Source: a virus. From it: a stretch of DNA of 22,344 nucleotides. Below, one piece after another: positions 1 through 22,193 of this stretch. The stretch is taken from the IMG/VR virus record IMGVR_UViG_3300047277_000069, positions 1 to 22,344 of that record; one strand, 5' to 3'. The notes beneath the pieces were generated by a model that was not told the DNA's origin, made no database searches, and saw only the letters and a program-made list of their open reading frames with translations. How positions within the stretch are numbered: the first letter of the stretch is position 1; every line of letters begins with the position of its first letter. The translations under genes and the position numbers were made by a program.

Positions 1-3000
1 AAAGAATAGATTATTAAATTCTGCATCTAACTCATTGATGAAAATATCTTCTTTAAGCGCAGTTACAATATTACGGATTTCAGAATTTGGATTCTGGTCG
101 TATCTATTAGACGAGAATCCTTGATTTCCGAATCCTAATTCATTATCGGCAAAGTTGCCAATTGACTCATTTAATTGAATAGTGCCGTCTTGAATGCCAA
201 CTACAATAAACTCAAGATTTGCAGCAACCGCAATTAAGCTCCAACCATGCGATCCGGCATTACTAACTCTAACAAGAATTTCGTTGCCGGCTGCATATGG
301 TAATTTTAATGCATCAACTAATGTTGGAACTACAAATTCAATTTGTGTTGCGGCGCTGTAGCCAACTGCATACCAATCAACATAATGCCAATATAAATTA
401 GTTTTGTAGCTTTGTACTCTACTAATTTCCCAAGTCTTATCAATTGATAATTCGTATACTACCCATAGTCCGTCTTGAGTAGTATCGACATCAACTAAAA
501 CTTTATACCCAACATCTAATGTCACAATGTCAAGATATGACAACTCTATTTCTGTTGCTACTTTTTTGTCATATTCGCCTAATTTAATATTAGGTTGCGG
601 TTCTGAGGAATTAAGATTAGTTAAATCGTATTGACGTGCAATTGGTTTTGTAACAAAAATTCCATTAGTATATGCTACTAAATTGTTCAATGCGCCGCTG
701 CGATCATTGAACATAGCTTGGCGTGGGCGTGTATCAATTCCAAATTGATCAGCGATACTTAAAGTAGGATCCGGTACCAATGCACCAGTCACATCAATGC
801 CTGCCAAACTATCAATTAGTTTATTAATAATCTTAGCAGCAATAGTGCTCGACGCATTTCCTTTTTGTATTAATTCATACTCACTGTGAATCAAATTTGT
901 ATTTTTAATAAGATCGTAATCAAAATGCAATATAGTATTTTGTGCCGATAGATACTCGCTTACATTATACACTATAAAGGCATTATCACGCACGACTGCC
1001 GCATAAGGAACGCCCTGATTTTTAGGATTTGCAATGATATCCTGAATTGCAACAATTGGCAGATTTCTCGTTGGGTTGTTCGCATCAACAGTTGTTTTAT
1101 CTTTAACCCAATAGTAATATTTGTAACTAATGATATTAGTTACCGAATCGACATACATTGTTGATACATACGCACTATCGTCTGCATATTTAGGGATGCC
1201 GTCGCCTATATAACTGCTCGGAAGTACATTACTTTCCACCCATTCTAATACCTCAATAATAGAACCCGGAAATACTCTGCCCCAGTTTATACTACGATAA
1301 GTTAATGTGCTTTGCTCGTAATCGAGATAACGTAGTGTGCTTAGATTCCACCATACTTGTCCTACTTGATTTTCGTTCCAATATATGCTATCATTTAAAC
1401 TAACTGCACTATTTGTTCCTACATTGTATTTTGCAGGATCGTAACTAGTTTTATATGTAATCTCTTGCTCTGCACGACCAAGTATTTTACCTTTAACTGG
1501 ATCGATAAATTCTAATGTTGATAAAATTGTATTAGTTAATTTATTGTATAGATATATTTGATTAATTGCATCTACATCAACTGCCGGTGATTGATAGCGA
1601 ATTAAATCCCATCCACGTTGTGCCATTGGATTTTCAAATAAGTATACTGCGCCAGCATCAGTTAGTGTAGTATCATCGCCTAATGCAGATACTATAATGT
1701 AATGACCAACAACATCAATTGCAGTACCAAATCTGTCACCAATAGATAAATCACCAGTATTAAGTTGTTGGCAAAATGCGTAACGACCCGGATTCTCAAC
1801 TGCGTCACGCGGATCATCATATAATTCGTATATATAAACTCCACCTGCGCCAGATGTACTATCATAAAGACTTGTTGTTGTGGTGTCAAATATAGTAGTA
1901 TCTTGATCAAATGTTGCGTACCCTCGTGTTGTACCACGCTCACTTGATATAACTAACATAAGTGCATTACTAGCTAAAATTACTTTGCTTCCAAAGTATT
2001 CACCCGGCGTTTGATATGGATTAACAATAATTTGCATTTCGGCAAATACTTTCATACCTGCATTTGCATAGATTCCAGTTACGCCCGATGGTTGACCAGA
2101 TAAAATACGTAATCTATTTTTCGCAACTGTTTTGTCGCTGTTTAATCGTAAGTATCCATTTTCGTTTGCTGCGGTTACACCTAATAGATTAGCAGTATTG
2201 ATATCTTGAACCATCGAATCCAGTGTCGTGCCTGTTGCCTCAATTGAAAAGTTATCTAATCGTATGTTATGACCGGGAGTAAATGTTGGATTATGTATTG
2301 TACCTAAATTAGTACCGTATAATCGTCCTCTATTGTGGAATTTAAATACTGCACCTGTGTTATAAATTGTTCCGCTATCGTAATATGGTGCGCCAACATA
2401 AATTGCACAATTATTAGAACAGATTGTTAGTGCTGTACCAAACTGCGCATCTTTTTGTACTACACTACCGGTTAATAGTTCTAATAGATTGAATTGATTT
2501 ACTTCAACAAATACAACTTTGCCAACAGTCGGTGGTGTAACAAATCTGATTGTATTAGAACCAACCACAAAGTAATCACTAACTTCGATATTATCGATTG
2601 TAACTCTATGTACTGGTCCAATAGTTCCTTCTGTTATATAATCTGATGTGCCTGTACTATTAAATGCCTCGATTACTCTATCGTATACATAAACTGCGCC
2701 TGCGCCAGTTTTGCCGTTAACTGTTTCGTTTGGTGTACCAACTCCTAGTTGTGCTCCGTCCCAGCTTGCGTCTAATGCACTACCAAATCCACTACCGGTT
2801 GTGCCCTGTAATGTTGTTACTAATGTATAGTACGGTGCCTGAGAAATTGCAATATCATTTTGTGCAATATTAGCAACAAAGTTAACAGTTGTACCAGATA
2901 AAGTGTAATCAATATTTGGAATATATGTTTTACTTCTGCTAGTAACTAATAATGAAGTTGCGTCATTTGCAATGTCGGGAGTAAATGTTAATGCAATTGT

Positions 3001-6000
3001 GTTAGTTATAGAAGACGACGTAGTTGATAGAGGATATTTTCCGGTATCGACTCCGTTAACTAAAATATTTGCACCAACAATACCAGTTCTAATATTAGTC
3101 AATCTGTCTACCACCGGAGCAGAAAGATTTACGTTACCTAGTACAATACTTTCTGCGTCAGACATTAGTTGTGTAAGTTTGTCGCCAATCTTAACAGTTA
3201 TAGCACCGTTTAGTATTAGTGTATTCTGATCATTTACTGAATGTATTGTTTGTTGGTCTGATACAAATTTGTTTAATCCATATACATACACTCTATCATT
3301 GCCCGGGGCACCTACATATAACCACGTACCTGTTTCATCAAATGCAATACTCGAGCCAAATCTATCATTTGTTGCTGCTATATTACCTATAATTATGCCA
3401 GCACGGTTAAATGTTGTATTTGATCCAATTGTGCGATATGTATAAACATAACCAATATTACTTGCACTACCTGGTGCGCCGACCGCAAGTACGTTAGTCG
3501 CCAAGTCCATTGCGTGACCAAATTCTATTGTGTTTGCTGCATCTGGTGCAATAACCATATTTTCAAGGAATTTGTCAACGTTATTTTTAACAAATGTTGT
3601 TACTGTACCTGTTGCCAAGGTCGTTGATATCGGATGAGAACCTGCGGCTACACCGTTGATTGCAATATTTCCTGCTGTATCCAATACAGTATTCGTATTA
3701 TATTTTACAGTTATTACAGCATCACTTGACGCTGTACCTAGTAATGTTAGGTTAGCCCCAGTTGTTGCTTGAGTAATATAGCTTCCTGCATTTGCAGTAA
3801 TTGGCATAGTTAAGGCAACGATTAGTAATGATGCTTGCGGAGTGCCTGTTACAGAAATTAGACCATCTGCGCTCATTCTAACACTTGTGCCGTACCCATC
3901 AGTTGATGCGTATTCAGTCTGCCCTTTTTCAAATGTTTGATTATAATTCCATGGCATAGTTTTATTATAAACTTTCCATGTATTATTTGATGTGTTAGCC
4001 GACTGGCCTTGCGCCAGCGAAGTAGCGGCATCAATATCAATCCAAATCTTTTCGTTTGCTCTCCAGCCATGTGGTGGAACATATTTACGTGCATCTTCCA
4101 TGTAAGTAAAGCGTAAACTGTCGAGCGCAAATAACATACCGTTACCGGAGATTGTGTCTAATTGAGAGGTATCACCGGAATACTTAACCATAATATTATT
4201 AAGATTAATTATTGAATCAACTTGATAAAATCCATCAAATGCTATGTTAAATCCACGAATGACAAATATATCATTTACTGCCAATGCATGCGGAATAGTC
4301 GACGTAAATGTAATATATCCATCTAACGAATTTGTAACGGCAGTAATGTGATTATCTGTTTCTGTTACACGATATACATTCCAATTTTGTGTAAAATCTT
4401 TTGCACACCAGATAGTATATCCACTCCCGATTGTACTTAAACTATTATTTAAATCAACAAAGTCAGTAAGATCAAATATTGCAGTATCAACGTCGTTGAT
4501 ATTTACATATCCCGCTGTTGGGATATCATTACTATAATCACTATGTGCATCACGAGTTAGCAGTGACATAGTAGTGCCAATTGATGATTTATACAATTGT
4601 GACTTGCTGAATACTGTTACTCCGTCTGCTCTATTTGCATCTTCGGCGCCAACAAATTCAGCAATAGCAGGATTAACACTAAATGCTTTTTCATCTAATG
4701 CAATTTCGATGTACGGATTTGTATCTAATGCACCGTATTCACCGACGCGAACTGCCCACTCTTCATAAAAGTTAATTGCACTACTTATATTATTAAATTC
4801 TGCGTTAGTTAATTGATTAACTGCATTTGCAGAACCTTTTTGTTTAATAAATCCTTTATAGAATTCAATTTGTGTTGTGTTGCTTAATCCAAGATCTGCC
4901 AAGTATTGTCTCGGTTTAAATCCAATTAAGCCATGACTGTATGTTATTTGATCTGCATCGTTGAAGTTCGAATGTGAATCATAATATGCTTGTGACTTAA
5001 CTGCAATAGTAGAAAAGTTAGGTAGTAGTCCTTTCTTAATTTGATCTGCCGGAATTGTTTTCCAGTATGCAAATGCAAATTCCGGGGTTGCAGTTACGTT
5101 TTGTAATGCAACATAATATTGATTTTTGTATTGCGCTAGATCGCCTTTTAAGTAATCCTTACCGGCGGCCCATGCATCAACAATACCAGAACTATACATA
5201 AAGCCCGGGGCACTCAAACTACCGTCCCAGTCTGCTGTTTTTTGTCCAATTAGTTTTAGTCTGTATTGTCTATTACCGAGCTCTGGTTTATAGATAATAT
5301 CATTAAACACCGTTGTATTATCAAATATCAATACATGTTCGTATTGTACTAGATTTAATTCTGCATAGCCAATAACAGCATCATTTGTTAACGTTACTTT
5401 AAATGCAGTCGGGCTACGTAATACATTATAATTAACATGTTTAACTAATTTAAAGTTTTGATCTAATACCTTTGATCCGTGTTGACTATCTGTGATCGCA
5501 TCTGTGATTGCTCCAACTGTAACTGCATTTAGTACGTTTGCAACCGGACTTAACACTAAGATGCTGCCAGTTGCCCATCCTTGCTGTGCCCAGAACATAA
5601 ATTCTTTCGCCGATAGTTTCCAGTTACGTGTTTCACCTAATTGTTCATCGGTATCGTTGAATGTAAGGCCTTGTGCCATTAAGTAGCGTTCGTAACTAAT
5701 TAAAAAATCAGTTACTTGCTGTTGACTATTAAATTCATAACCATACGGTACTGTTAGTTTTAAATTTTGATAATCTCTAAATACAGTTGTTGAACTACTT
5801 AACACAGTAATTTTGTATGCATTTGAGTTTATAACACTAGGAATAATAGTGAAGTATGGATTAGCTAAATTATAACCCCGTACACTATATCCGTTAGTAG
5901 TTTTTTCAACAATCACACCACTATATACCATTTTGTCAACTGGGGCAGATTTATACAAATGTACATTATAGTTTTCGTTTGGAATAATAATGCTATCGTT

Positions 6001-9000
6001 GGTACTTGTTGGCGAACTTTGTTCTGCTAATACTTGTAGGTACTTGTGATCACTAAATCCAGCCATTTTATATGCAAGATTAACTTGATAATTTTTTAAT
6101 AGCGGTGTAATAACAGTAGATGGATTAATTCCTTGATTTACTAAGAAATCTGCAATCCAGTTTATATAGCCTGCTGTTCTAACTGGTGTGCCAGATGATA
6201 TATCGCCATTGAATGTCAATGATGTTTGTTTAATATGATCATTATTATTAGTTAGATATTGCCCTAGTATGTAATTCATTGAATAACGAGATACATCCAT
6301 TGATAGCCCAAAATATCTACCAGGTTTTGCTAGTGCAAGTGCTTGCTGTGCAGCAAACGGAAAATCACTGCTATTACGCCATGCCTGTTCAACTGGCCCG
6401 TACTGCCCTACTGCCCACGTTGTTGCGGCTCTCGATGAATTAAATGTTGCTGTCATAATTGCTGCAGGACTTAATAAAAATCCATTTTCATCTACTGGGA
6501 TAACAGTCGATAGGCCAGGGCGAGCAAAGTTTGTATCTATTCCTGTGCGTAATCCGCCTTTAATTATTCCTGCTTCCAAGTCATCCCATAGTAATTTGTT
6601 ACCGCCTGTGTACGGTGCAGTACCATATTCTTCTTCCCACCATAATGGCATTGCACTAAACCCTAGCATTTCCCATGGTGTGGTATGCGGACGAATTGTA
6701 TCGTAATAATATTGATAACATGCTCTCCAGCTTCCTGGTAATATTTCTCCATCGATTCTATCAGTGAACCGACTGTAGTTCCATGTAAATGGATCATTGC
6801 TTTCAAATGTATCATTTACAGAAAAGTCAATTTTGTTATTGCCAATCCAAGTTAAAAAGCTTCTCGATAATAATTGATTAGCTTCGGCTAAATTGTAACT
6901 ACTATCTCTAAACTTACCAGGAACAACCTCAAAGATGTCTTGATAACTGCTAACATCTGGCAATTTAATATTATTGTATATACGTTTTTCTAATTCCAGT
7001 AAGAAACCATCTCTGTAGTCGCCAAACGTAGGTGTTATACTACCATCATGGCCTCGTATAACATTAATCGGGGTACGATATGTATCATCTAAGAATATTT
7101 CCGGAATGAACTTAGGAAATAATCCTAGCTTCGTTGGAGTTTCCGGAATATAGTTCCCGTCGGTATTTTGATATTCTACAAATTTAACAACATCATCTAC
7201 TAGCAAGGTAACTGTATCAGTAAATGTTATTCCCGGACGATTGGTTTCGAACGTATAATCATTTGTTGAAATTAATTGTACGTCATTTAAATAAACAAGG
7301 ACCGCAGTGTTACTTAATGTATATGCATCAAATACCTTAGTAAGTTCGTATGTGCGAACTAAAGGATCGAATATTGTATATGTAATTGTGTTAATCAATG
7401 TGCCATACGGCACCATATCACTATAATACCACGGGAAACTTGTATTTTTGATTGTATTAATTGTTGTTAAAATTAAATCAACACTTGCCACTGGATCGGT
7501 TGGTTGTATTCCGGTTAATGTTGCACTTAGCTCCAAGAATTTATTTTTAAATCTTGCGTATTCTTGTTGTGCATAGCGAGTAGCATCAATAAAGTTTGTA
7601 TTATCATTTAATAAGAACAATGCGCCGTTGGACACCGGGGCACTGTGTTGTAAAATATTACCACCTTGCGCTTTTATTTCTATATCGCGCAAATTGCTCT
7701 GCCCAAGTATACTGCCAACTAATTCGTTACTATTTTGACTTAACACTACAAGATGATTTCTTAGTTGTCCGTGAGTCATTGATGATAAGTCAATATTTTG
7801 CGCATTTAGATCTAAGTTAAATGGGATTTGATATTGGCCAAGTGCGCTAGTCATTGAGCTAGTAACTAATATATCAATCTTGTCACCGATTACCGGAGCT
7901 GTAGTTAATATTATTTGATTATTAGTTAATGTCCATTGAGTCGATGATACCCATGTATTGTTTTGATAAACCTTAACAGACGGAATAGTTGAATTAGCTG
8001 AATTCGGAACAATATCAAGTGTAAATGGACTGTTTAATCCATCGTATATATAAGTTATTAACTGCGGCTGTGTGCTGTAGTCAACAACCGTTGCCCAGTT
8101 ATTCATTGGGTTAGTTACTTCTCTATCTATTATTTTTAATAGAAAGCCAGTAGCAACACTAGAGTGATATGTGACTTGATCAATAACATAGTCAAATGTA
8201 TCTGTATCAAAATAGTTAGAAAATTCAATGTCGCCTTGCGCTTGAAATGTTCTATATTTTAATGGGAATCCCAACACCGAATCTGCATTTCCTGTTCCTG
8301 TTCTATTATATCCAAATAGTTTAGTCCCAGCGAACGTACTGCGTGGATATGTTGATAAACTTACTCCAGTTAAATCAAATATATCAAATAATGGATCTTG
8401 TTGTAATGTTGTCTTTTGTTGAGCTTCCATCCACGAAATACCATCGTACCACCATTGACTACCTTTGTGTTGCCCGTCAGTTACAACTAATGTATCATAT
8501 ATATTGCCATCGCCATCGTTGGCAATAGTTAATTTAATTTGTGCCGGACCTGTTGGTAGCCCTTCGCTATCAACTAATGTTTGCACTAAATTAATAACAT
8601 AAACTTTATCACGCACTAGTGGATCTAAGTCTTCAGAAAATAGTATGCGCATACCATCTACTATGTTAACTCCAGCAACTGTAGTCAATACTTGCCCTTC
8701 TAATTCAGTAAATGCATCAACAGTTGTTGTATCTAAAATGTTAATTGATTGTTTACCAATTCTACCATTGTTAAATAATTGAATATCTGTATCAAACTGT
8801 ACAATCGGACGTTGCGCACGTAAAGTCTGATCATATGTTACAACAGTACCATTGTACTCTGCAGTTATGCTAATCACATCACGATGGAACCAACGATTGC
8901 TACGAGACCAAGCATTTAAATCTTTACTTGCGCGATTGATTGTAATATAGTCAGGAAATGTTTGGTCGGGATAGTTTAATGCTAACTCGTCATTGTATAG

Positions 9001-10467
9001 CTCAGGGGTAACCAATAGAGCTACGTTAACAAGTGCAATAGCGTCACCTACTCCTTCTACATAGTATTCATTATTTTGATAACTTGCAGGAGTAACATCG
9101 GCCCCAAAACTAACTTTTAGTCCGCTTGTAAATTTAATGCCGTTGGGACTAGTGTATGTTTTTTGTCCAATGATATCATTTTCGATATCAATTATCCAGC
9201 TTACAGTATCAACTATTTTAATTGTTCCGTAAATTGCAGGGTTAGCGCCATCTTGGAAATATAATGTATTTTGTATACTTGAAATTACAGGAACAGGGTA
9301 GAAAAATCCATCATATTCTTTAAAGAATTCTTTGTTTGCATTTACAAGACCGGCTTTAATGTATACTTTTTCATTTAATGCAACATTTTGCACGTACACT
9401 AATCGTATAAGCGGATCAACTTCGTTTGTTTCGAAAAATTGAACACGCCAAACGCCATACCGTTGAGCATACGGCACAACTTCGCCTGTGCCGTAATCTG
9501 GATCAATATCACCGTCATTATCGTTTACTGCATCTGCTGTCCATGCTGCTTCACCATAATTAGTTAAGGTATCTTGTTCGATAAAGATTAATGTCTTGCC
9601 GTCTAACTGTCCACTGATACCGGCATACTCAGGGAACTGAGCAATAAACTCACTTAAAAAATGATTATGTATATCTGAATAAGCAATAGGCGCGGCATAA
9701 TCTACATTGTACACAGTGGCCATTCCGGTGTAGTGTTCTTGCGCATCTGCTTGCGGAACATGGAATGTTATTGCGCCGCTTTCGGCGCCGTTGTTTAATA
9801 CACCAAGTACTTCTCTAGCACTAATCGTTGGCGTTGCGTTAATTAATCCGTCGACCCCCGGTTCAGTTTGTATCCAAAATCCAGCTCCAACTTGGTTGAC
9901 CTCAAATGTATATTGACCACCACGTGCCAATGTAATTGTATTATTAACAATTCCGCCAGATGTAAAGTCATACCGCGATGCACTAGTGTTACGAGTAATT
10001 GCAAATGTTTTTTCTAAATCGACTCCGTTAGTGTTAACATCAACTTGATCAGGACCTTGCGGTAACCAATAGTATTGACTAAAGTTAACAAATTTGTCAA
10101 ATGATAATTTTGGGTCAAAACTATAATATTCTTGATCAAATAACCTTGCATGATTATTACTTAGACCACCGTGGTATTCAATTTTATTTAATAAATCGAT
10201 ATAACTTGCAAAGAATGTAACTTCGCTTTGTTCATCGCGGACAACAATACTCGGCTCAAGTTGATACTTTTGTCGTTCGGCCGAGCTCTCAATAACATAG
10301 CTATCTTTACTCTTATATGTAGGAGCAAATGTTCTTCCGATATAACCATATATGTTTCTTAAATTAGGTTCAGTTACTAACTGATCTAATGTAGCTGACA
10401 AAAACTTATTGTTAACGTCAGTTTGAAATATGGTAGGAAGAAAATTGGAGGTCTTTTTTGTCGCCAT
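1..10467 (-). CDS. Giant baseplate/tail structural protein, 3' end outside window (at least 3489 residues)
   Basis: This is a virion structural protein of the very large family found next to gp6 in aquatic T4-like phages; it lies where T4 has gp7. I read the minus frame from the ATG at 10467 to base 1: 3489 codons with no TAA, TAG or TGA. The N-terminus (MATKKTSNFLPTIFQTDVNN, then LRNIYGYIGRTFAPTYKS and RQKYQLEPSIVV) matches the start I recall for the cyanophage proteins. Further family-like segments lie near residues 1470-1510 (IIIPNENYNVHLYKS, YSGVIVEKTTNGY) and 3030 (WNENQVGQVWWNLSTLRYLD). Residues about 2310-2960 carry FG-GAP-type repeats. Acidic DxDxDG-like loops lie near residues 316 and 650. 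The start is 29 bp after gp6, behind a late-promoter box, with only a weak Shine-Dalgarno. Equivalence to gp7 is a guess from gene order. The right edge and frame are secure; the true C-terminus is unknown. Confidence 0.9.
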   Translation of the reverse strand, partial: MATKKTSNFLPTIFQTDVNNKFLSATLDQLVTEPNLRNIYGYIGRTFAPTYKSKDSYVIESSAERQKYQLEPSIVVRDEQSEVTFFASYIDLLNKIEYHGGLSNNHARLFDQEYYSFDPKLSFDKFVNFSQYYWLPQGPDQVDVNTNGVDLEKTFAITRNTSASRYDFTSGGIVNNTITLARGGQYTFEVNQVGAGFWIQTEPGVDGLINATPTISAREVLGVLNNGAESGAITFHVPQADAQEHYTGMATVYNVDYAAPIAYSDIHNHFLSEFIAQFPEYAGISGQLDGKTLIFIEQDTLTNYGEAAWTADAVNDNDGDIDPDYGTGEVVPYAQRYGVWRVQFFETNEVDPLIRLVYVQNVALNEKVYIKAGLVNANKEFFKEYDGFFYPVPVISSIQNTLYFQDGANPAIYGTIKIVDTVSWIIDIENDIIGQKTYTSPNGIKFTSGLKVSFGADVTPASYQNNEYYVEGVGDAIALVNVALLVTPELYNDELALNYPDQTFPDYITINRASKDLNAWSRSNRWFHRDVISITAEYNGTVVTYDQTLRAQRPIVQFDTDIQLFNNGRIGKQSINILDTTTVDAFTELEGQVLTTVAGVNIVDGMRILFSEDLDPLVRDKVYVINLVQTLVDSEGLPTGPAQIKLTIANDGDGNIYDTLVVTDGQHKGSQWWYDGISWMEAQQKTTLQQDPLFDIFDLTGVSLSTYPRSTFAGTKLFGYNRTGTGNADSVLGFPLKYRTFQAQGDIEFSNYFDTDTFDYVIDQVTYHSSVATGFLLKIIDREVTNPMNNWATVVDYSTQPQLITYIYDGLNSPFTLDIVPNSANSTIPSVKVYQNNTWVSSTQWTLTNNQIILTTAPVIGDKIDILVTSSMTSALGQYQIPFNLDLNAQNIDLSSMTHGQLRNHLVVLSQNSNELVGSILGQSNLRDIEIKAQGGNILQHSAPVSNGALFLLNDNTNFIDATRYAQQEYARFKNKFLELSATLTGIQPTDPVASVDLILTTINTIKNTSFPWYYSDMVPYGTLINTITYTIFDPLVRTYELTKVFDAYTLSNTAVLVYLNDVQLISTNDYTFETNRPGITFTDTVTLLVDDVVKFVEYQNTDGNYIPETPTKLGLFPKFIPEIFLDDTYRTPINVIRGHDGSITPTFGDYRDGFLLELEKRIYNNIKLPDVSSYQDIFEVVPGKFRDSSYNLAEANQLLSRSFLTWIGNNKIDFSVNDTFESNDPFTWNYSRFTDRIDGEILPGSWRACYQYYYDTIRPHTTPWEMLGFSAMPLWWEEEYGTAPYTGGNKLLWDDLEAGIIKGGLRTGIDTNFARPGLSTVIPVDENGFLLSPAAIMTATFNSSRAATTWAVGQYGPVEQAWRNSSDFPFAAQQALALAKPGRYFGLSMDVSRYSMNYILGQYLTNNNDHIKQTSLTFNGDISSGTPVRTAGYINWIADFLVNQGINPSTVITPLLKNYQVNLAYKMAGFSDHKYLQVLAEQSSPTSTNDSIIIPNENYNVHLYKSAPVDKMVYSGVIVEKTTNGYSVRGYNLANPYFTIIPSVINSNAYKITVLSSSTTVFRDYQNLKLTVPYGYEFNSQQQVTDFLISYERYLMAQGLTFNDTDEQLGETRNWKLSAKEFMFWAQQGWATGSILVLSPVANVLNAVTVGAITDAITDSQHGSKVLDQNFKLVKHVNYNVLRSPTAFKVTLTNDAVIGYAELNLVQYEHVLIFDNTTVFNDIIYKPELGNRQYRLKLIGQKTADWDGSLSAPGFMYSSGIVDAWAAGKDYLKGDLAQYKNQYYVALQNVTATPEFAFAYWKTIPADQIKKGLLPNFSTIAVKSQAYYDSHSNFNDADQITYSHGLIGFKPRQYLADLGLSNTTQIEFYKGFIKQKGSANAVNQLTNAEFNNISSAINFYEEWAVRVGEYGALDTNPYIEIALDEKAFSVNPAIAEFVGAEDANRADGVTVFSKSQLYKSSIGTTMSLLTRDAHSDYSNDIPTAGYVNINDVDTAIFDLTDFVDLNNSLSTIGSGYTIWCAKDFTQNWNVYRVTETDNHITAVTNSLDGYITFTSTIPHALAVNDIFVIRGFNIAFDGFYQVDSIINLNNIMVKYSGDTSQLDTISGNGMLFALDSLRFTYMEDARKYVPPHGWRANEKIWIDIDAATSLAQGQSANTSNNTWKVYNKTMPWNYNQTFEKGQTEYASTDGYGTSVRMSADGLISVTGTPQASLLIVALTMPITANAGSYITQATTGANLTLLGTASSDAVITVKYNTNTVLDTAGNIAINGVAAGSHPISTTLATGTVTTFVKNNVDKFLENMVIAPDAANTIEFGHAMDLATNVLAVGAPGSASNIGYVYTYRTIGSNTTFNRAGIIIGNIAATNDRFGSSIAFDETGTWLYVGAPGNDRVYVYGLNKFVSDQQTIHSVNDQNTLILNGAITVKIGDKLTQLMSDAESIVLGNVNLSAPVVDRLTNIRTGIVGANILVNGVDTGKYPLSTTSSSITNTIALTFTPDIANDATSLLVTSRSKTYIPNIDYTLSGTTVNFVANIAQNDIAISQAPYYTLVTTLQGTTGSGFGSALDASWDGAQLGVGTPNETVNGKTGAGAVYVYDRVIEAFNSTGTSDYITEGTIGPVHRVTIDNIEVSDYFVVGSNTIRFVTPPTVGKVVFVEVNQFNLLELLTGSVVQKDAQFGTALTICSNNCAIYVGAPYYDSGTIYNTGAVFKFHNRGRLYGTNLGTIHNPTFTPGHNIRLDNFSIEATGTTLDSMVQDINTANLLGVTAANENGYLRLNSDKTVAKNRLRILSGQPSGVTGIYANAGMKVFAEMQIIVNPYQTPGEYFGSKVILASNALMLVISSERGTTRGYATFDQDTTIFDTTTTSLYDSTSGAGGVYIYELYDDPRDAVENPGRYAFCQQLNTGDLSIGDRFGTAIDVVGHYIIVSALGDDTTLTDAGAVYLFENPMAQRGWDLIRYQSPAVDVDAINQIYLYNKLTNTILSTLEFIDPVKGKILGRAEQEITYKTSYDPAKYNVGTNSAVSLNDSIYWNENQVGQVWWNLSTLRYLDYEQSTLTYRSINWGRVFPGSIIEVLEWVESNVLPSSYIGDGIPKYADDSAYVSTMYVDSVTNIISYKYYYWVKDKTTVDANNPTRNLPIVAIQDIIANPKNQGVPYAAVVRDNAFIVYNVSEYLSAQNTILHFDYDLIKNTNLIHSEYELIQKGNASSTIAAKIINKLIDSLAGIDVTGALVPDPTLSIADQFGIDTRPRQAMFNDRSGALNNLVAYTNGIFVTKPIARQYDLTNLNSSEPQPNIKLGEYDKKVATEIELSYLDIVTLDVGYKVLVDVDTTQDGLWVVYELSIDKTWEISRVQSYKTNLYWHYVDWYAVGYSAATQIEFVVPTLVDALKLPYAAGNEILVRVSNAGSHGWSLIAVAANLEFIVVGIQDGTIQLNESIGNFADNELGFGNQGFSSNRYDQNPNSEIRNIVTALKEDIFINELDAEFNNLFF
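1621..3540 (-). repeat. FG-GAP-type repeats (predicted beta-propeller) inside the giant protein
   Basis: Protein-level repeats in the giant gene. Each starts with FG(S/T/H)(A/S/K) and is usually followed about 15 residues later by a GAP-like turn and then a VYVY-type strand. FG falls at residues about 2315 (FGHAMDLATNVLAVGAPG), 2370 (FGSSIAFDETGTWLYVGAPG), 2561 (FGSALDASWDGAQLGVGTP), 2676 (FGTALTICSNNCAIYVGAP), 2825 (FGSKVILASNALMLVISS) and 2913 (FGTAIDVVGHYIIVSALGDD). A weaker candidate (YGTSVRMSADG) is near 2191. Spacing is uneven (55-191 residues), so loops or small domains are inserted between blades. FG-GAP repeats form integrin-like seven-bladed propellers, often in binding proteins. 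A receptor-binding or capsule-binding role is inference. Confidence 0.8.
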
Positions 10468-13930: not shown

Positions 13931-14308
13931 TTAGCGGGCAGTGAGTGTTCTTGTTTGATTATCAAATCGAAGATTCATTAAATTAGTTTGATTTGTTTGT
14001 AAATAACGTAAGTCAAGCTCAATTTGAATACCTGTTTCGTATTCTGTTATAATGACATTATCAATTGATACTCGTGGGTCGTATGCAGCGATTGTTTTAA
14101 TATCGGCAATAATAGCACTCTTAAGTTCAGCAGTAAATGGGTCGTACAATACGTTCCAAATAATAGTACCGAAGTTTGGGTTCATTAGTTTTTCGCCCTT
14201 GCGGATGTGGAAGTGGTTAATTAAGTCTTGCTTAACTAACTCAAAATCAGTTAGACGAAACTTTTTATTTCGTCCTACTGTACTAAATCCTTTATACATA
14301 ATAGCCAT
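13931..14308 (-). CDS. gp25: gp25-like baseplate wedge protein
   Basis: A 125-residue protein, close to T4 gp25 (132). gp25 is a wedge component with a small lysozyme-like fold but no proven wall-degrading role; it bridges the gp6 ring and the sheath initiator region. Diagnostic segments are LTDFELVKQDLINHFHIRKG, EKLMNPNFGTIIWNVLYDPF and AAYDPRVSIDNVIITEYETG. The last carries DPR where most family members have EPR, a conservative change. The TAG at 13931 is followed by gp6 after 50 bp, and gp5 ends 8 bp upstream, so it is very likely co-transcribed. An AGGA lies about 11 bases before the ATG. An ATAAATAT run just ahead of the ATG is too close to act as a promoter for this gene. Confidence 0.95.
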   Translation of the reverse strand: MAIMYKGFSTVGRNKKFRLTDFELVKQDLINHFHIRKGEKLMNPNFGTIIWNVLYDPFTAELKSAIIADIKTIAAYDPRVSIDNVIITEYETGIQIELDLRYLQTNQTNLMNLRFDNQTRTLTAR

Positions 14309-14316: not shown

Positions 14317-16458
14317 TTATCCTGCTCTAAGTCCTGCTACTTTCGGTGCCATAACAGCAATTGCATATTTTCCCTTTTGGAAGTAACTTGCTCCCGACGT
14401 TCCGTTGTTAATATCAGATCCGACCCCTGTACGTGCAAATGTATTTGCTCCACCAGCACCTAGCATATGAGCTGTCATTAGTAATCCGCCAATTTCTTCA
14501 TGCGATGTCTCTGTTGTAATTGCTTTTTTAGATACTAATATATTGTAATTAGATTTAGTAAAGTTAAAAATTGCTTGCTCTTGTATTGCCGGAGTAGAAA
14601 GAAACTTATCGCGACTTAACCCGCCTAGCCACATTGCATCATTGCCTAATGTTGCTGTACCTTTGCAGTTATGCCCAACAAAGCCAGCAGTTTGTAATGC
14701 TGCGTAACCCATTTGATATTTGCCCAAGAATCCGCATTGATTAATTGCCATATACCCTGCTTGTCCATTTTGTAAGCGTGGAGAATACGAACGTGGTACT
14801 TTACAATCAATGCTCATCGGAGTTGCACCACTACTTTCACTTTTAGCAATTTGCGCCAGTAACGCAATTACTTCGTCTTTACTTAATGGCCCGATTACTC
14901 CGAGCCCATCTGCATTAATTAATTGATCTCTAATATTTGTATCAGTTAGTGTGCCCGATACTCCTTTTAAACTTTTGTATGATGGCGTAAAGCTAGTATC
15001 TGGTGTACCAGGCGGAGTTGAAATTGGTGCTGTTTCTTCGGTTGCTCTGCCGCCACGATTAAATGGTTCGTGTGTTGGTGCAACCGAAACAATGGTTGAC
15101 AATTTTGCAGATTGGGTGTATAATCCAGTACTACTAAGGGCTACATCAGTTAAACTATTTGGTTTTATCGGGGCGGGCGCAGTAACAGGGGCGCCGCCAA
15201 TTGTATTTTGTAGTACTTCCCCGTTTAATACTAGTTTACCGCCTGCTTGCACAGATACTGTTGCGGCATCAATATTATATGCTCCACCTGATTTAAATTC
15301 TATGCCACTAGCGCCAACACTTAGTTTGCCTGTTGATAGTAGATTAATACCTGCAGCATTAATTTCTAGTTTGTTGCCTGCGTTTATGTTAATGTTGTTG
15401 TCTGCATTAAGATTAATGTTAGTATCGGAGTGAATATTAACTGTGCCCTCACTCCTAACGTTAAAACCAGCTTTTGAATATATGTGTACTTGTCCGTCAC
15501 TTGCAAGTTCGACCCAGCTCGTGCCATCACTATGCGAAATATATAACGTGTTGTCCGAGTCATTCATCATTATCTGATGACCCGTCGCAGTACGTAATCT
15601 AACTAATTGGTCATCGCCAGTTACACTACCATCGTCCATAACAAATGTATGCCCGCCCTTGCGAGTTGAATATCGATAATCATCCTCTGTTAATGTTCCT
15701 GCTTTAACTTTAGCAAGATATATTTCTGGATTATCTGCAGGATCTCCATCGTACGGTCTACCAGGAGTGCTAATACCAAATACATTACTTGGGCTTTCGC
15801 GCTGACTGCTACTAGTAATTGTGCCTCGTGATTGATCTCTATCTAATCCTTGTTGCTTTAAGATTGTATATTGTGGTTCGTGGATAGGTTTAGGGTTATC
15901 AACAAAGTTAGGATTTTTAGTAACTTCTACATTATTTTCATTATATTCAGCAACAGGTGCAAGTAATCCTAATTTGTATGATTGTTTAGTTGCATCATCT
16001 GCCCCAGATATATCAACGGCGTTACTGCTTGCTAGTCCCGGCATCATGTATCTACTAACATGAGAATTAACACATGCAATAAAATAGCCGCGCAACGGGT
16101 CACCTCCAATAAACAGTACAATAACTTCTACCCCTACATCGGGTGGAACCATCCACATACCATATGTATGCGGTACATTTCTAAATTTATTATCTGTGTT
16201 AGGTAATTTGTTTGCTTTTTTTGCAATATCTGTTGTTCCCATAAATGGGCTGGCGTAGCTAATAGTGCGCCAATTATGTGCATCATCTTCGCTACCGCCT
16301 AAGTCAGGAATCCATACTTGTAGTCGGCCCGATCTAGCAGGGTCGAGATTATTTTTTACAATACCTATGTATGGATGTGGGTCAACTCTAGTTGCGGCGG
16401 CGTCTTCCTTACGCAAACTTTTAATAACCTTACTACCGACTCTGTGATCTATTGCCAT
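14317..16458 (-). CDS. gp5: gp5-like baseplate central spike with C-terminal lytic-transglycosylase-like domain
   Basis: The central needle protein that pierces the host outer membrane. Residues about 28-135 form the gp5/VgrG-type OB-fold (HPYIGIVKNNLDPARSGRLQ, WMVPPDVGVEVIVLFIGGDP). Residues about 268-412 look like the triple-stranded beta-helix needle: short alternating strands rich in N, G, I and V (VNIHSDTNINLNADNNININ). A Pro/Thr/Ser-rich linker covers about 415-500. Residues about 525-700 look like a goose-lysozyme/SLT transglycosylase-type domain: AKSESSG with candidate catalytic Glu541, GFLGKYQMG at 576-584 and AHMLGAGGA at 663-671. Three Cys (552, 575, 598) lie inside this domain. 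T4 gp5 instead has a T4-lysozyme-type domain between OB-fold and needle. The gene starts 23 bp after the hub gene, with AAGGA about 9 bases before the ATG. The fold assignments come from sequence pattern only. Confidence 0.92.
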   Translation of the reverse strand: MAIDHRVGSKVIKSLRKEDAAATRVDPHPYIGIVKNNLDPARSGRLQVWIPDLGGSEDDAHNWRTISYASPFMGTTDIAKKANKLPNTDNKFRNVPHTYGMWMVPPDVGVEVIVLFIGGDPLRGYFIACVNSHVSRYMMPGLASSNAVDISGADDATKQSYKLGLLAPVAEYNENNVEVTKNPNFVDNPKPIHEPQYTILKQQGLDRDQSRGTITSSSQRESPSNVFGISTPGRPYDGDPADNPEIYLAKVKAGTLTEDDYRYSTRKGGHTFVMDDGSVTGDDQLVRLRTATGHQIMMNDSDNTLYISHSDGTSWVELASDGQVHIYSKAGFNVRSEGTVNIHSDTNINLNADNNININAGNKLEINAAGINLLSTGKLSVGASGIEFKSGGAYNIDAATVSVQAGGKLVLNGEVLQNTIGGAPVTAPAPIKPNSLTDVALSSTGLYTQSAKLSTIVSVAPTHEPFNRGGRATEETAPISTPPGTPDTSFTPSYKSLKGVSGTLTDTNIRDQLINADGLGVIGPLSKDEVIALLAQIAKSESSGATPMSIDCKVPRSYSPRLQNGQAGYMAINQCGFLGKYQMGYAALQTAGFVGHNCKGTATLGNDAMWLGGLSRDKFLSTPAIQEQAIFNFTKSNYNILVSKKAITTETSHEEIGGLLMTAHMLGAGGANTFARTGVGSDINNGTSGASYFQKGKYAIAVMAPKVAGLRAG

Positions 16459-16481: not shown

Positions 16482-19400
16482 TTAAGAAGCTCTCGTAGCA
16501 GTTCTTGATTTTAATGTTTCTTTGATAATAGCAACATCACTCAGGATTTTAGTTTTAAGTGATGGGTTCTCATCATAATATGATATTGGTGTTACAAGTA
16601 AATTATCAAGAGCAGTTGTTCTAATTCCCATTGCAGCATATTGCCCTCTAAGAAATACTAAATCTGCAGCACTTATACCTTCAAGTGGTGACCCGGTTAT
16701 AGCTGCCATCGGCGAATTATTATTAGTAGGCGGCGGAACAGCAACTGGTTCTGTTGGTTTATCAATTGGTTTTTCTGGTGCAGTTGCGTTAACTTTAGCT
16801 AACGCTATCTCTTCGGCAGTTTGTGCTGGCTTAGCAGTATCTGCCACTGGGTTACTGCCGGGCGCAGTATCAACTCCATCTACTTTATTAACTTGCGACA
16901 TATTTGGCGCAATATTATTATTATCAACTACTGCAACAGCGCCGGCAATAGCAGGGCGTTCTTTTGATTCTTGTTTTGGTTTTGTTGTATAATCAAATGC
17001 AACCTGTCGAGGTAAGCGCACTGCTTCAACTGTTTGAATAAATTGTCCGTTTGCAAAATTACTTTCTACTTGCAACACTCTATACATTCCCGAAAATAAA
17101 TTTTCAGAGTAATGTGGGTCGAATTTCATTAAGCCAGTTGTTTCGTCTATGTCGACAGGACTTCTTACTGAAATTTGTATATAAACTTCGCCTGTATCCA
17201 TATGCAAACTACCGTTTGCGATCAATCGTGAATCTGTGCCCGTACTATCAACCTGATCTGAATCCGCTACCATTACTGGTGGATAAAATATATCATCTTG
17301 TTTAATATATTGCGGGTCGCCTATAATTTTTAATTTACATTGTAGCATATCGCCGCCTGCACTTGTATAGATTGATGATTCAACATCGGTTACTGCAAGT
17401 GCCGCATTAGTGATTGCTCCACCAGAGGAGTTAACTTGAGCATTGAAAATTACAGGTTTCGACTTTGCTGGCATTACTGAATTAGCATCTATATTAGCTA
17501 CAACATAGCCGTCGGGGTTTTCTGTTTTTAAATCTTCTTCTGGGTCAATGTTATATAACTTAGATACATTTTCAGTATACGCTGTAATTGCAGTATAGTA
17601 AAGTGCATTAAACTCGATATTAAAATCAAGTACATCGCTATTTTCCCCAGTGTAGTAATAATTGTGCACCTTAACTGCATCTGTTATTACTGCTTGTGGA
17701 GTAATTGCTAATTTAGTATTATATATTGTATACGGTACTACATTATATGTAATGTTTCTCGCCCAACGTTGCTGACTTTTGCAGTATGCGCCCAATGTTA
17801 CTGTTGGTATAACTTTAAACCATTTAAGTGGTTTAGATTGTTGCTCTTTTTTATATGCTTTGTAGTCTTCTGCAGCTGTAGTTCCAGTAAAATCAGTAGA
17901 TAACTTTAATTGACCTTGCAAATAATCACTATGTCGCATAACAAACATAATAACCTGATCTATACTTGTACCTGCATTGATTGAAAATATGCGAGCCGTG
18001 TATTCAAGTGAGGAATTTGCAGCACCCCTAATAGACATTCTGTTATCTTCACTTGCTAACGGAGTACTTGCGGCACTTAATGTTTCTGAACTGATATTAA
18101 ATTTTGCATTTTTAATGTCGTCGTGAAACTTAAACGAATAAGTGTCGGCTGCTTGAATTTTATTTGTTGCAGCTAAGTCTGCATAGTACGCATTAATTGC
18201 ACCACTATATGATTTAATTTTATAAATCGGTTCCTTACCGACGATTAAATCTGTTGTACGTTGACTCATTAATAATGACGGAACAACCGATAGTTGCCCC
18301 GACGGACCAATTAGGTTACCAGTTTGTCCGGCTATTGTTGCGTTAGTTCGACCATTTGCACCAGCGGTGGGCGCAAGGCGTAAATTAGTAGAAGCAGCTA
18401 ATTCTCGTTGTGATTTCATTTGTTCAACAATATTCTCGGCTTCACTACTTTGGAAAAAGCCAGCAACAGTGCCAGCTGCAATTTCAAAGTTAGCAGGAGT
18501 AGATACAGTGCTTAAATCAAATGCCGAATGGCCAAACACACTTGCTTGCATTTGATACTCTGCACCTTTACCACTTGCTTTAATGTCCATTTTTAGAATA
18601 CGAATCGGAATTCGTTTAGTTTGATCGGGCACTACACCAATAATTTCGCCGGCATCGTTTGATGCAAAGAAATCAATTTGCAATAGATAAGGTTGATCAA
18701 GGTAGTTCATTGATTTAACTTCGGGCGACATACTAAGATCAATAATTCTAGTTAGTAGCGTAACACCATATGGTTCAATAATAGTAAATGTAAAATTTAT
18801 TGCATTACTTGAACGAGAATGTTCATTCATGCCAATCACTGTAGTCATGTTTAAATTATCAAAGTAGAAATCTTCTGCAAATGCCGGTTCTGCTCGCTTA
18901 AACTTACTTGGACCTTCATTATTGTTATATCTACCTGCACTTGCTATAATAACTCGATTTGCAGTATAGTCTTGCTTTTCAATAATCCGATTGTATTCAT
19001 CTATTGTTAGTAATGCAAGACTAAGTCCAAAGGTATATCCGGGGTATGCCAATAACGGATTAGGCAATGGTGCAAGATGTAATTTTTCAGGAGGTTGGGC
19101 AGTAGATGCTTCTGTGTGTGCTACCTCAGATGCCGTGGCGTTCGGTTCAATTAATGTCTCGCCTGGTGCCAAAGCAAGAGAATCTTTTTTAGCAAGTTTT
19201 GCTTTTTCTGCTGCAGACAAGGTCGTTGCTTTAGCCAGTGATGCATTTTGTTGTGCTCGTAATTTTTCAAATTCATTTTGAAATTGTGCTTGATTTATTT
19301 TACCAGTACTTAAATCGTTTGCTAACTGAACTTGATATTGTGTATACTGTGCGTTAATTGCAGTTGTTGGATCGGCAGCTGGTGTATCATTTTTTATTTT

Positions 19401-19565
19401 AGCAGATGCAGTATCTTGTGTTTTTATAATAGGTATTGATGGTTGTGCAGATGCAGTCATATGCGCTTCTGATTTTAGATCGTTTATAAATGTCGGATCT
19501 TTCTTGAATTCTGCCGGTGCATCAGCAAGTAGTTTAGCGTATATCTGTGCTTCTGTTTGTGCCAT
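16482..19565 (-). CDS. Large baseplate hub protein (gp27/gpD-like, tentative)
   Basis: A 1027-residue virion protein of a family I recall from aquatic T4-like phages. It occupies the place beside gp5 where a gp27-type hub is needed. Residues 1-165 are Ala/Gln/Lys-rich and probably helical or disordered. A conserved core at about 165-375 holds YPGYTFGLSLALLTIDEYNR, AFAEDFYFDNLNMTTVIGMN and FTFTIIEPYGVTLLTRIIDL. Later segments (DVLDFNIEFNALYYTAITAY, KIIGDPQYIKQDDIF, LFSGMYRVLQVESNFANGQF) are the strands expected of phage hub proteins of the gpD/gp27 group. A Pro/Ala/Lys/Thr-rich linker precedes a small C-terminal helical tail. It starts 3 bp after the gp53 stop. No separate gp27-like gene is visible, so this protein probably provides the hub ring. 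Structural role is likely; gp27 equivalence is inference. Confidence 0.8.
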   Translation of the reverse strand: MAQTEAQIYAKLLADAPAEFKKDPTFINDLKSEAHMTASAQPSIPIIKTQDTASAKIKNDTPAADPTTAINAQYTQYQVQLANDLSTGKINQAQFQNEFEKLRAQQNASLAKATTLSAAEKAKLAKKDSLALAPGETLIEPNATASEVAHTEASTAQPPEKLHLAPLPNPLLAYPGYTFGLSLALLTIDEYNRIIEKQDYTANRVIIASAGRYNNNEGPSKFKRAEPAFAEDFYFDNLNMTTVIGMNEHSRSSNAINFTFTIIEPYGVTLLTRIIDLSMSPEVKSMNYLDQPYLLQIDFFASNDAGEIIGVVPDQTKRIPIRILKMDIKASGKGAEYQMQASVFGHSAFDLSTVSTPANFEIAAGTVAGFFQSSEAENIVEQMKSQRELAASTNLRLAPTAGANGRTNATIAGQTGNLIGPSGQLSVVPSLLMSQRTTDLIVGKEPIYKIKSYSGAINAYYADLAATNKIQAADTYSFKFHDDIKNAKFNISSETLSAASTPLASEDNRMSIRGAANSSLEYTARIFSINAGTSIDQVIMFVMRHSDYLQGQLKLSTDFTGTTAAEDYKAYKKEQQSKPLKWFKVIPTVTLGAYCKSQQRWARNITYNVVPYTIYNTKLAITPQAVITDAVKVHNYYYTGENSDVLDFNIEFNALYYTAITAYTENVSKLYNIDPEEDLKTENPDGYVVANIDANSVMPAKSKPVIFNAQVNSSGGAITNAALAVTDVESSIYTSAGGDMLQCKLKIIGDPQYIKQDDIFYPPVMVADSDQVDSTGTDSRLIANGSLHMDTGEVYIQISVRSPVDIDETTGLMKFDPHYSENLFSGMYRVLQVESNFANGQFIQTVEAVRLPRQVAFDYTTKPKQESKERPAIAGAVAVVDNNNIAPNMSQVNKVDGVDTAPGSNPVADTAKPAQTAEEIALAKVNATAPEKPIDKPTEPVAVPPPTNNNSPMAAITGSPLEGISAADLVFLRGQYAAMGIRTTALDNLLVTPISYYDENPSLKTKILSDVAIIKETLKSRTATRAS

Positions 19566-19568: not shown

Positions 19569-19874
19569 TTATAACCCTAATGCAATAGTTATTGTTTCTT
19601 TCTTAGGTACAAAAATTGTTGTTCCTGGCAGGAAATCAAACACAGGATCTTGTATTGTATTTGGGTTGCGCATTGCAAATACCCACCATAACGCACTGTC
19701 ACCATATAAGTCATACGCTAACAGATCAGGACGGAATTTGTATGTTGCTGCAATTTGATATACTACATCGGATGCAATTGCAGGAATATCTCTAAATGTA
19801 GTAATATCTAAAAAGAATCCGTAAGTTTCTGTATTAGCATACGGACTTGCTTTGCTATATTGTGCAGATGACAT
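19569..19874 (-). CDS. gp53: gp53-like baseplate wedge protein (LysM-type), short form
   Basis: A 101-residue protein matching the conserved part of gp53, the wedge subunit whose LysM-like fold clamps neighbouring wedges. Diagnostic stretch, about residues 40-93: VVYQIAATYKFRPDLLAYDL, then YGDSALWWVFAMRNPNTIQD and PVFDFLPGTTIFVPKK. T4 gp53 is about twice as long (196), so this is close to a bare LysM module with a short N-terminal arm. Its ATG overlaps the upstream stop as TAATG, which suggests translational coupling. A perfect AGGAGG lies 9 bases upstream, inside the end of the previous gene. LysM modules can bind peptidoglycan, but in this family and position the structural role is much more likely. 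Confidence 0.85.
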   Translation of the reverse strand: MSSAQYSKASPYANTETYGFFLDITTFRDIPAIASDVVYQIAATYKFRPDLLAYDLYGDSALWWVFAMRNPNTIQDPVFDFLPGTTIFVPKKETITIALGL

Positions 19875-21112
19875 TATAGGAATCCTCCTGATGTTGCAGT
19901 TTGTAGTAATCTACCCGATGCAAAGTCATTCATGTTAAAGTTATCGTGTAAGTTTTTACGACTGTACACTGGTTTTAATGTAATTGATATTGTACTTACT
20001 GCTGGTACACGTGTTGATGTTACAACTGATTTGTATTCCATCTTTTTAGTATCAGCTGTTGCTTTTTTACTGCCCCACTGTGGTGCATATATTTGTCCAG
20101 TAGTTGCATCGGACATATTACCCAACGAATTGTTTACTGATCCTATATTTGCAGGGTCGGCACCGACGATAGATTCTGTCAGAGTTGCTGTAGTTACTGG
20201 AATTTGAATATAATCAACTTCGTTTGGTAGTGTATGAGTAAAACTACTTATTACACAAGGCACATGCGGAAAATAATGACTACCATATCCATCTAAGAAT
20301 ACAATCGGCGGCGGATTACCTGCATTTGCACCACTACCAAAAAACATTTTAGTAGCCGATCTGAAGAAGTATATTGCCGCAAGTAAATATTTGCCTTCAT
20401 CAATTCCCTGTACTGTAAATTCGCCGGTAACTGTAATATCACTTACTTCACTATTTGTATAAAATTGTTGTGAATAGTTACTATGCATTGGTGTTGCTGC
20501 TGAATAATTAGCTATATGCGATACTGCGATACTCGGAGTATACGGAAAAACAACGCCATTTGTTTCTACTAGTGGTTCCATAAGACTATTTGGATTTGGC
20601 CCAACTGCTTTGTAGAATATATCTGATTTGTCAGCTAAACTTATGCGTATTCTCCAGTCATCATCTGACCCTGTACTAGCACCATTTGCAGTTTGAATTC
20701 CAATGACTGGTTCTTTTTGCACTGCCGCTTCTGCTGCATTATCGGGCAATACACTTTTTCTTGCTGTTTCTGATTCAAATGATGCCCCACCACCGCCGGC
20801 ATTCTCTGGAGTTTGTTCGCCATAGTATCCGCCAGCAAAACTAGGCGCAGTACCAACTCCGTCAGTTATAGCAGCAGTTCCGCCAATTGAATCTGTTCCT
20901 GTTAAATATGCACTCGGACTAGATGGATTATAGCCACCACCACTACTTAATGCTTGCTCGCCATTATATCCGCCAGCAAAACTAGGCGCATACGCACCAG
21001 TATAGTTTTGCGGAGCATAAGGGTCGTATCCACCATTGGTAGAATCAACTTGTCCGGGTACGTAACCACCTCTATTATCAAATATTGGTGCGTCTGTAGG
21101 ATTTAGAGCCAT
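19874..21112 (-). CDS. Tail-tube/baseplate junction protein (gp48/gp54-like, tentative)
   Basis: First gene of the minus-strand operon, 412 residues. Residues 1-115 are low-complexity, rich in Gly, Tyr, Pro, Ser and Ala, with APSFAGGYNGEQ and APSFAGGYYGEQ as a clear repeat. The folded part starts near 150 (DDWRIRISLADKSDIFY) and includes NGVVFPYTPSIAVSHIANY, EFTVQGIDEGKYLLAAIYFF, RSATKMFFGSG and SSFTHTLPNEVDYIQIPVTT. This strand-rich pattern fits the tube-initiator/tube-cap group of T4-like phages, and its place before gp53 and the hub agrees. Which of gp48 or gp54 it matches cannot be decided by eye. The start is supported by an AGAGG about 8 bases upstream and by a late-promoter box at 21123-21140. 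It overlaps gp53 by one base. That it is a baseplate/tube protein is fairly sure; the exact name is not. Confidence 0.7.
   Translation of the reverse strand: MALNPTDAPIFDNRGGYVPGQVDSTNGGYDPYAPQNYTGAYAPSFAGGYNGEQALSSGGGYNPSSPSAYLTGTDSIGGTAAITDGVGTAPSFAGGYYGEQTPENAGGGGASFESETARKSVLPDNAAEAAVQKEPVIGIQTANGASTGSDDDWRIRISLADKSDIFYKAVGPNPNSLMEPLVETNGVVFPYTPSIAVSHIANYSAATPMHSNYSQQFYTNSEVSDITVTGEFTVQGIDEGKYLLAAIYFFRSATKMFFGSGANAGNPPPIVFLDGYGSHYFPHVPCVISSFTHTLPNEVDYIQIPVTTATLTESIVGADPANIGSVNNSLGNMSDATTGQIYAPQWGSKKATADTKKMEYKSVVTSTRVPAVSTISITLKPVYSRKNLHDNFNMNDFASGRLLQTATSGGFL
19884..19889 (-). promoter_or_regulatory. Consensus Shine-Dalgarno of gp53
   Basis: A perfect AGGAGG on the minus strand, 9 bases before the gp53 ATG and within the last codons of the 412-residue gene. 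With the TAATG overlap it fixes the gp53 start and is the strongest ribosome-binding site seen in the window. Confidence 0.8.
20826..20849 (-). repeat. 24-bp direct repeat, copy 2 (second in coding order)
   Basis: Identical over 24 bases to 20967-20990, 141 bp away and in the same frame. It encodes the core of APSFAGGYYGE in the Gly/Tyr-rich N-terminal region of the 412-residue protein. Exact DNA identity, including synonymous positions, points to a recent duplication or conversion. Confidence 0.9.
20967..20990 (-). repeat. 24-bp direct repeat, copy 1 (first in coding order)
   Basis: Partner of 20826-20849, encoding the core of APSFAGGYNGE. The 141-bp spacing is 47 codons, so recombination between the copies would remove or add 47 residues without changing frame. 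Confidence 0.9.
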
Positions 21113-21122
21113 AGTAAAACCT

Positions 21123-21140: not shown

Positions 21141-21184
21141 TGTCGGAGAAATAGTAGCAGTTAAAGAATAACCGCATAAATAGG

Positions 21185-21240: not shown

Positions 21241-22140
21241 ATGGCACGTAAAGTCAACTATTTAAATAATAAAGACATTTTAAAAGAAATCGCTAAAAGT
21301 AAATTAACATATTGTAGTTTTATTAACAAAGATGTAACTATGTACGATGCTATTGTATTAAATGTAAGTGCAATTACTAAAAAATCCGTAGCAGAAGCTA
21401 GAGCAACAAGAGCAACAAGGCTTGCTAAAGAAGCACAAGAAGCTGAATTATTGCTTGGTAACAAGCGCAAGTTAGATGAATTTGCAATCCCAGTAGAAAA
21501 TATCCCAGTAACAGACATTGTATTCCGTGTTATGACGTGGGAGCATATACCTATTGATGAAGTTAAACAGAAAAAGTCCGACGCTAAAGCACAAGAAGCA
21601 TATGATGAAGATTTGTTTGAAACTGAATACGATGAGCCTGCACCAGTTGTTAAAGTTAAAGGTGCGGTTAAGTACGTTAAACTAAACTTTCCTCCATTCT
21701 TTCATTATTCAGTAACCGACGACTTAACTCCGGTTATTGTCGGCAAGAGTCATTGGAAGGGCGACTTTGAAACTGGTGGCTTTGTTAAGGATCATGGTAG
21801 CATGACGGCTAAGTTAGCTCATATGTTTGTTAAACTATGTGAACGCTATGCTACACGTAGTAACTGGCGTGGTTATACATACAATGATGAGATGCGTTCG
21901 CAAGCATTACTTCAATTAAGTCAAATTGGGCTACAGTTTGATGAATCTAAATCAGACAATCCATTTGCTTATTACACAGCCGCAATTACAAACAGCTTTA
22001 CTCGTGTATTAAACATCGAAAAGCGTAATCAAAACATTCGTGATGACATCTTAGAGATGAATAACTACGCACCGAGCTACACCCGTCAGAATCAAGGCGG
22101 CAGTTGGGGCGGAGGTGGCGGACACGGAGCCGACGAATAG
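21241..22140 (+). CDS. gp55: gp55-like sigma factor for late transcription
   Basis: gp55 replaces the host sigma factor on RNA polymerase and directs it to ATAAATA-type late promoters. The N-terminus (YLNNKDILKEIAKSKLTYCS) matches the start I recall for gp55 of aquatic T4-like phages. The sigma-region-2-like part is at about 187-262: MTAKLAHMFVKLCERYATRS, WRGYTYNDEMRSQALLQLSQ and SDNPFAYYTAAITNSFTRVL. T4 gp55 has the same order (GYT.RD/E.M, K..NPFAYFT). At 299 residues it exceeds T4 gp55 (185); the extra mass includes a charged segment at about 45-140 with DEDLFETEYDEP (123-134). The C-terminus is Gly-rich (GGSWGGGGGHGADE). AAAAGGA lies 10 bases before the ATG and a sigma70-like promoter is directly upstream. 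It is transcribed away from the baseplate operon. Confidence 0.9.
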   Translation: MARKVNYLNNKDILKEIAKSKLTYCSFINKDVTMYDAIVLNVSAITKKSVAEARATRATRLAKEAQEAELLLGNKRKLDEFAIPVENIPVTDIVFRVMTWEHIPIDEVKQKKSDAKAQEAYDEDLFETEYDEPAPVVKVKGAVKYVKLNFPPFFHYSVTDDLTPVIVGKSHWKGDFETGGFVKDHGSMTAKLAHMFVKLCERYATRSNWRGYTYNDEMRSQALLQLSQIGLQFDESKSDNPFAYYTAAITNSFTRVLNIEKRNQNIRDDILEMNNYAPSYTRQNQGGSWGGGGGHGADE

Positions 22141-22185: not shown

Positions 22186-22193
22186 CTAACTAT

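Follow-up and report, generated by a model that had tools for sequence, protein, structure and literature searches.

The window analysed here is an entire virus record of 22,344 bases, and the stop codon of the giant gene that fills its left half lies outside its reach. Homologues of T4 gp6, gp25, gp5 and gp53 stand upstream of this gene in one minus-strand structural block, and a gp55-like late sigma factor gene runs divergently from that block (Table 1). These neighbours, together with the virion proteins among the relatives described below, bear out the T4-like virion context that the earlier note had proposed. The divergent intergenic region before the gp55-like gene (21113-21240) carries ATAAATA-type stretches resembling T4 late promoters. 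At the right end (22193-22344) a truncated ORF begins with MANLFKKAAVLTDIHFGLKSN... and probably encodes an SbcD/gp47-like nuclease subunit; RaK2 and CBB have such a gene after their sigma gene.

Table 1. Genes of the window and segments of the giant protein (residue numbers are those of the giant protein).
Feature	Position	Strand	Remarks
Giant gene, PHROG_10938	1..10467	-	3,489 codons, truncated at the 3' end by the record boundary
Residues 2941-3489, conserved again	1..1647	-	In relatives runs ~750 residues past the record
Residues 2041-2940, variable insert with FG-GAP repeats	1648..4347	-	Low occupancy in distant relatives
Residues 1866-1914, motif QxxFYxGfIxqKG(T/S)xNA...YEEW	4726..4872	-	Near-invariant; candidate gp7 core counterpart
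Residues 1761-1808, small CBM_5/12 fold (predicted)	5044..5187	-	Pfam E 4e-4, below cut-off; structure match
Residues 430-2040, conserved core	4348..9180	-	Alignment to distant relatives; dip near 1021-1080
Residues 148-431, predicted cupredoxin-like beta-sandwich	9175..10026	-	In close relatives, missing from most distant ones
Residues 1-140, conserved N-terminal segment	10048..10467	-	Nearly all jumbo-phage relatives align up to ~120-140
gp6-like baseplate wedge subunit, 1,127 aa	10497..13880	-	phrog_10646 E 7e-301; 29 bases upstream of giant gene
gp25-like baseplate wedge subunit	13931..14308	-	PF04965 E 2e-8
gp5-like baseplate hub protein	14317..16458	-	phrog_13211 E 2e-44
Virion structural protein phrog_11190	16482..19565	-	E 2e-34
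gp53-like baseplate wedge subunit	19569..19874	-	phrog_7145 E 7e-28; PF11246
Virion structural protein phrog_12050	19874..21112	-	E 4e-45
gp55-like late sigma factor, divergent to structural block	21241..22140	+	phrog_12791 E 7e-79

The ORF listing and the translation agree with the earlier reading of the giant gene as stop-free: from its ATG it forms one 3'-open ORF with zero stops in 3,489 codons, a length over which about 256 would be expected at the base composition of the window (ln P(no stop) = -266). The remaining five frames of the same region contain 159-425 stops each, and their longest open stretch is at most 139 codons. Differences between the window gene and that of the relative L010 at codon positions 1/2/3 number 653/430/1437, a bias that fits protein-level selection. 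Among metagenomic contigs carrying relatives at the equivalent locus, the matched region lies in a single frame in 98 of 99. The only interrupted one, L016, shows one TGG-to-TAG change when compared with the 99.96%-identical L013; the TAG (L016:15537-15540) replaces the conserved YEEW tryptophan and is either a nonsense variant or a sequencing error. An assembly artefact or a chance ORF is ruled out by the relatives in these 99 contigs, the stop statistics and the codon-position differences. The in-frame stop or assembly frameshift that would have spoken against the gene was looked for across 1-10467 and not found, and we conclude that this is one real but truncated gene.

The closest relatives among the matches listed, L010 and L027 (both from IMG/VR), are 75.7% identical to the window protein and share its domain order and gp6 neighbour, and L010 also has its FG-GAP repeats. 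They are complete at 4,196 aa and continue for 750 residues past the point where the window ends, whereas the window copy lacks this last stretch of about 750 residues. Their length places the expected stop about 750 codons beyond the end of the record, in keeping with the claim that it lies outside the window, and the full protein is estimated by this comparison at ~4,240 aa (roughly 4,200) and ~460 kDa. Because L027 sits on a contig of 329,321 bases, the window is most likely one piece of a jumbo-phage genome. Complete ORFs are present in 64 of the 99 contigs and, leaving aside the interrupted L016, the other 63 range from 3,508 to 6,282 aa with a median of ~4,450. The longest of these (L080, L081 and L088; 6,190, 6,282 and 6,226 aa) are not gp6 fusions: gp6 is a gene of its own there, and their ~930 extra residues form an insert near residue 630. 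For T4-like virions, the earlier note's ranking of the protein among the largest is justified, but its own complete relatives reach 6,282 aa and the cyanophage gp7s 7,124 aa.

A profile-database search, as the earlier note had suggested, matched the window protein to PHROG_10938, a "virion structural protein" (E 0, 1,043.8 bits, three stretches, the best at residues 861-1757). Judged by sequence, it is a member of an already catalogued jumbo-phage family without an assigned function. In tblastn searches with residues 1-1000, 1001-2000 and 2490-3489, 57-60 phage records were matched at less than 60% identity, all of the RaK2, 121Q, CBB, PA5oct, Atu_ph07 and SCTP-2 jumbo types; the middle third additionally matched XacN1 and two Stenotrophomonas phages. 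None of the three segments matched a cyanophage, so the proposed resemblance of parts of the protein to a cyanophage family did not hold up, and close kinship with cyanophages is rejected for the window's part. The family occurs in about 60 cultured jumbo phages of the RaK2, PA5oct and Atu_ph07 kind, and in IMG/VR at least 593 matched stretches encode relatives. Each of nine jumbo-phage records has the family in one gene, and a profile search found it absent from T4 and S-SRM01. Known relatives include RaK2 ORF070w (3,322 aa), 121Q gp582, CBB_236 (3,340 aa), PA5oct gp355 (3,857 aa) and Atu_ph07 gp180 (4,449 aa). These cultured RaK2-like relatives share with the window the family, the slot after gp6, the conserved core and the KG(T/S) motif, but they are only 25-31% identical to the window protein over the aligned parts, and most of them lack the domains at 148-431 and 2041-2940 or have different ones there. 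RaK2-like jumbo phages carry one virion protein of 3,300-4,600 residues each, which is common in environmental phages and has so far been annotated as hypothetical or merely structural.

The protein alternates between conserved and variable blocks. By their distribution, segments 148-431 (occupancy 0.1-0.3 in distant relatives) and 2041-2940 look inserted in a conserved core, as the earlier note had supposed in describing a single real polypeptide with inserted domains. The model of residues 1-1075 was poor (mean pLDDT 53.5) and gave no PDB match at E <= 0.001; only residues 148-431 were usable, with pLDDT of ~60-85 over most of that segment, and they resemble rusticyanin (VIA-align Z 10.2, rmsd 2.4 over 100 residues). 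A comparison of this cupredoxin-like domain with the YHYH domain of cyanophage gp7 gave no support for equating the two. AlphaFold2 modelled residues 1210-2066 (72 sequences) as mixed alpha/beta with a mean pLDDT of 79.2; Foldseek matched this core model to family members in BFVD and found no significant match in the PDB. Within the core, residues 1761-1808 match the CBM_5/12 profile at 20.7 bits, below the 26.2 cut-off, and their predicted fold agrees with CBM_5/12 (VIA-align Z 8.2, rmsd 1.1 over 46 residues); the structure matches include tail structures of phages Milano, 7-7-1 and A-1(L). The FG-GAP repeats are matched by PF14312 (E 4.6e-16, 59.2 bits against a cut-off of 23, three stretches), and this region probably folds as a beta-propeller. 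Sequence searches of solved structures found no relative for the full protein or for profiles of residues 1-1075 and 1060-2060, and only chance-level rows for the FG-GAP region.

Such domains, and the large size, would suit a peripheral virion protein of the adhesin or fibre kind (a whisker, a tail-fibre base or a host-surface binder) that merely adjoins the wedge genes and has the FG-GAP, CBM-like and cupredoxin-like domains as its working parts, and the CBM_5/12 fold occurs also in phage tail-fibre and receptor-binding complexes. However, the FG-GAP and cupredoxin-like domains are variable, and the conserved core of ~1,600 residues is without adhesin signatures. Immunogold TEM of RaK2 identified gp526-534 as the long fibres and placed gp098 in the baseplate (PMC10253068). 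With the strict gp6 adjacency described below also against it, we regard this explanation as unlikely, although it is the one among the alternatives that we take most seriously. The same block structure, with variable regions between clear domain blocks, could instead reflect a single precursor from which several virion proteins are cleaved. Neither a cleavage signal nor a report of processing was found, and in none of the 99 contigs does a domain boundary divide the relative into separate genes, which makes a precursor improbable.

Relatives of the giant protein are present in virions. CBB_236 was represented by 21 virion peptides (7.72% coverage; PMC5259590), and ESI-MS/MS is noted in the sequence record of PA5oct gp355. 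In phAPEC6, gp245 (calculated mass 381.88 kDa) was detected by 17 peptides with 7.6% coverage and follows gp244, a "baseplate wedge" protein (PMC7247149); by its position and size, we infer that gp245 belongs to the giant family. This mass spectrometry concerns relatives only, and neither a location in the particle nor an intact chain follows from the peptides, so that coverages of 7.6-7.7% are also compatible with a cleaved precursor. PHROGs files PHROG_10938 under "head and packaging", as would fit a different structural protein such as a tape measure or a head protein. Against this, the gene lies inside a baseplate gene block, the predicted model is mixed alpha/beta without long helices, and Atu_ph07 has a separate predicted tape measure, gp701 (PMC6102473). 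We consider a tape measure or head protein very improbable, more so than a precursor.

Wherever the upstream sequence of a relative was long enough to tell (62 relatives), a gp6-like gene directly precedes the giant gene, with -1 to 112 bases between the two, and the giant gene directly follows gp6 in 7 of 8 cultured-phage loci examined. The exception, Salicola phage SCTP-2 (L008:4633-13923), has an unannotated giant ORF of 3,096 aa in the gp6 slot upstream of the relative. In T4 the slot of the giant gene is that of gene 7, which directly follows gene 6; gp7 is a wedge monomer of 1,032 aa present in 6 copies per tail (PMC3004832). Equivalences have been proposed between T4 gp6/gp7, P2 gpJ/gpI, Mu 47/48 and TssF/TssG, with a 2:1 stoichiometry (PMC6300606).

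Direct comparison did not establish homology with gp7. The gp7 profiles (phrog_964; Pfam Gp7_helical, Gp7_5th and Gp7_6th) had no match on the window protein, phrog_964 had none in the nine jumbo-phage records, and full-length profile comparison with T4 gp7 gave a probability below 1%. Scans of jumbo genomes with Tail_P2_I and PF23786 yielded nothing over cut-off but missed T4 gp7 too and are thus uninformative. The near-invariant motif of the core (Y1870 in 76 of 76 sequences, K1877 in 73 of 75, G1878 in 75 of 75 and W1904 in 72 of 75), found in RaK2, 121Q, CBB, SCTP-2, PA5oct and Atu_ph07, does resemble the FYxxKG(T/I)xxS(F/Y) core of T4 and cyanophage gp7, although its Y-to-KG spacing is 7 residues as compared to 3. 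A sliding-window comparison of profiles with the gp7 core gave scores of 25-26 for the four windows spanning the KG(T/S) motif, at a probability of only 9-12%, as against at most 18.2 elsewhere and at most 17.6 for the reversed target. One gap-rich window (2041-2240) was left out of these figures, its score being discarded when the reversed target scored equally. Because they overlap, and because the motif was sought after a KGT-type signature was expected, the four windows are not independent tests. No gp7 chain was among the structure matches of the predicted core, in which the motif region reached a pLDDT of just ~60-70. We regard the motif match as a weak lead, short of proof of homology.

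Taken together, we lean towards the giant protein being a gp7-equivalent baseplate wedge scaffold, an oversized counterpart of T4 gp7 as judged by position and motif rather than by proven homology. This role is the best supported, mainly because of the gene position. By analogy with (gp6)2-gp7 of T4 and (TssF)2-TssG of the T6SS, each of the six wedges would contain one giant chain bound to two gp6-like chains. The conserved core would serve as the scaffold of the wedge, connecting gp6 with the baseplate rim, and the cupredoxin-like, CBM-like and FG-GAP propeller inserts may decorate that rim as fibre docking sites or host-surface contacts. Placement in the gp7 slot gives these proteins a testable role and would explain the missing gp7 profile matches in jumbo genomes. 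A stronger proposal, to which we give somewhat less credence and which we find a little harder to believe than to doubt, is that the family shares true orthology with gp7/gpI/TssG despite extreme divergence, with the Y...KG(T/S)...YEEW core buried midway in a protein of 3,300-6,300 residues.

What the giant protein has in common with T4 gp7 and its proposed equivalents P2 gpI and TssG is the slot after gp6 and a weak resemblance in the KG motif; in contrast, T4 gp7 gives no profile match in either direction and has less than a quarter of the length estimated for the full giant protein. In cyanophages, too, a giant gene follows gp25-gp6; P-SSM2, S-SRM01, ACG-2014f and Bellamy have it annotated as the gp7 "baseplate wedge initiator", and the cyanophage gp7s that we read span 3,274-7,124 aa. 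Synechococcus phage S-SKS1 (L032:17889-24748) has two consecutive ORFs of 707 and 1,571 aa in the unannotated slot after gp6, where other cyanophages have one giant gp7. The giant family and cyanophage gp7 (phrog_2885/4406) share the gene position after gp25-gp6, but no similarity of cyanophage gp7 to the window's part was found, nor were its YHYH domains found in the giant protein. Similarity to cyanophages is confined to the C-terminal region absent from the window, where L010 carries a short GSGYT-type repeat. The region that the window misses holds, at approximately L010:15026-15250 and L010:15953-16210, GSGYT-type repeats and a TTL...GERITY...RRGT beta module; the repeats match cyanophage gp7 with a probability of up to 96%, and the module weakly matches its N-terminal region (~70%). 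A C-terminal beta module is perhaps common to the family and cyanophage gp7. If the family is truly orthologous to gp7, then jumbo phages and cyanophages would each have enlarged the same wedge protein with different inserts, as a scaffold for large baseplates.
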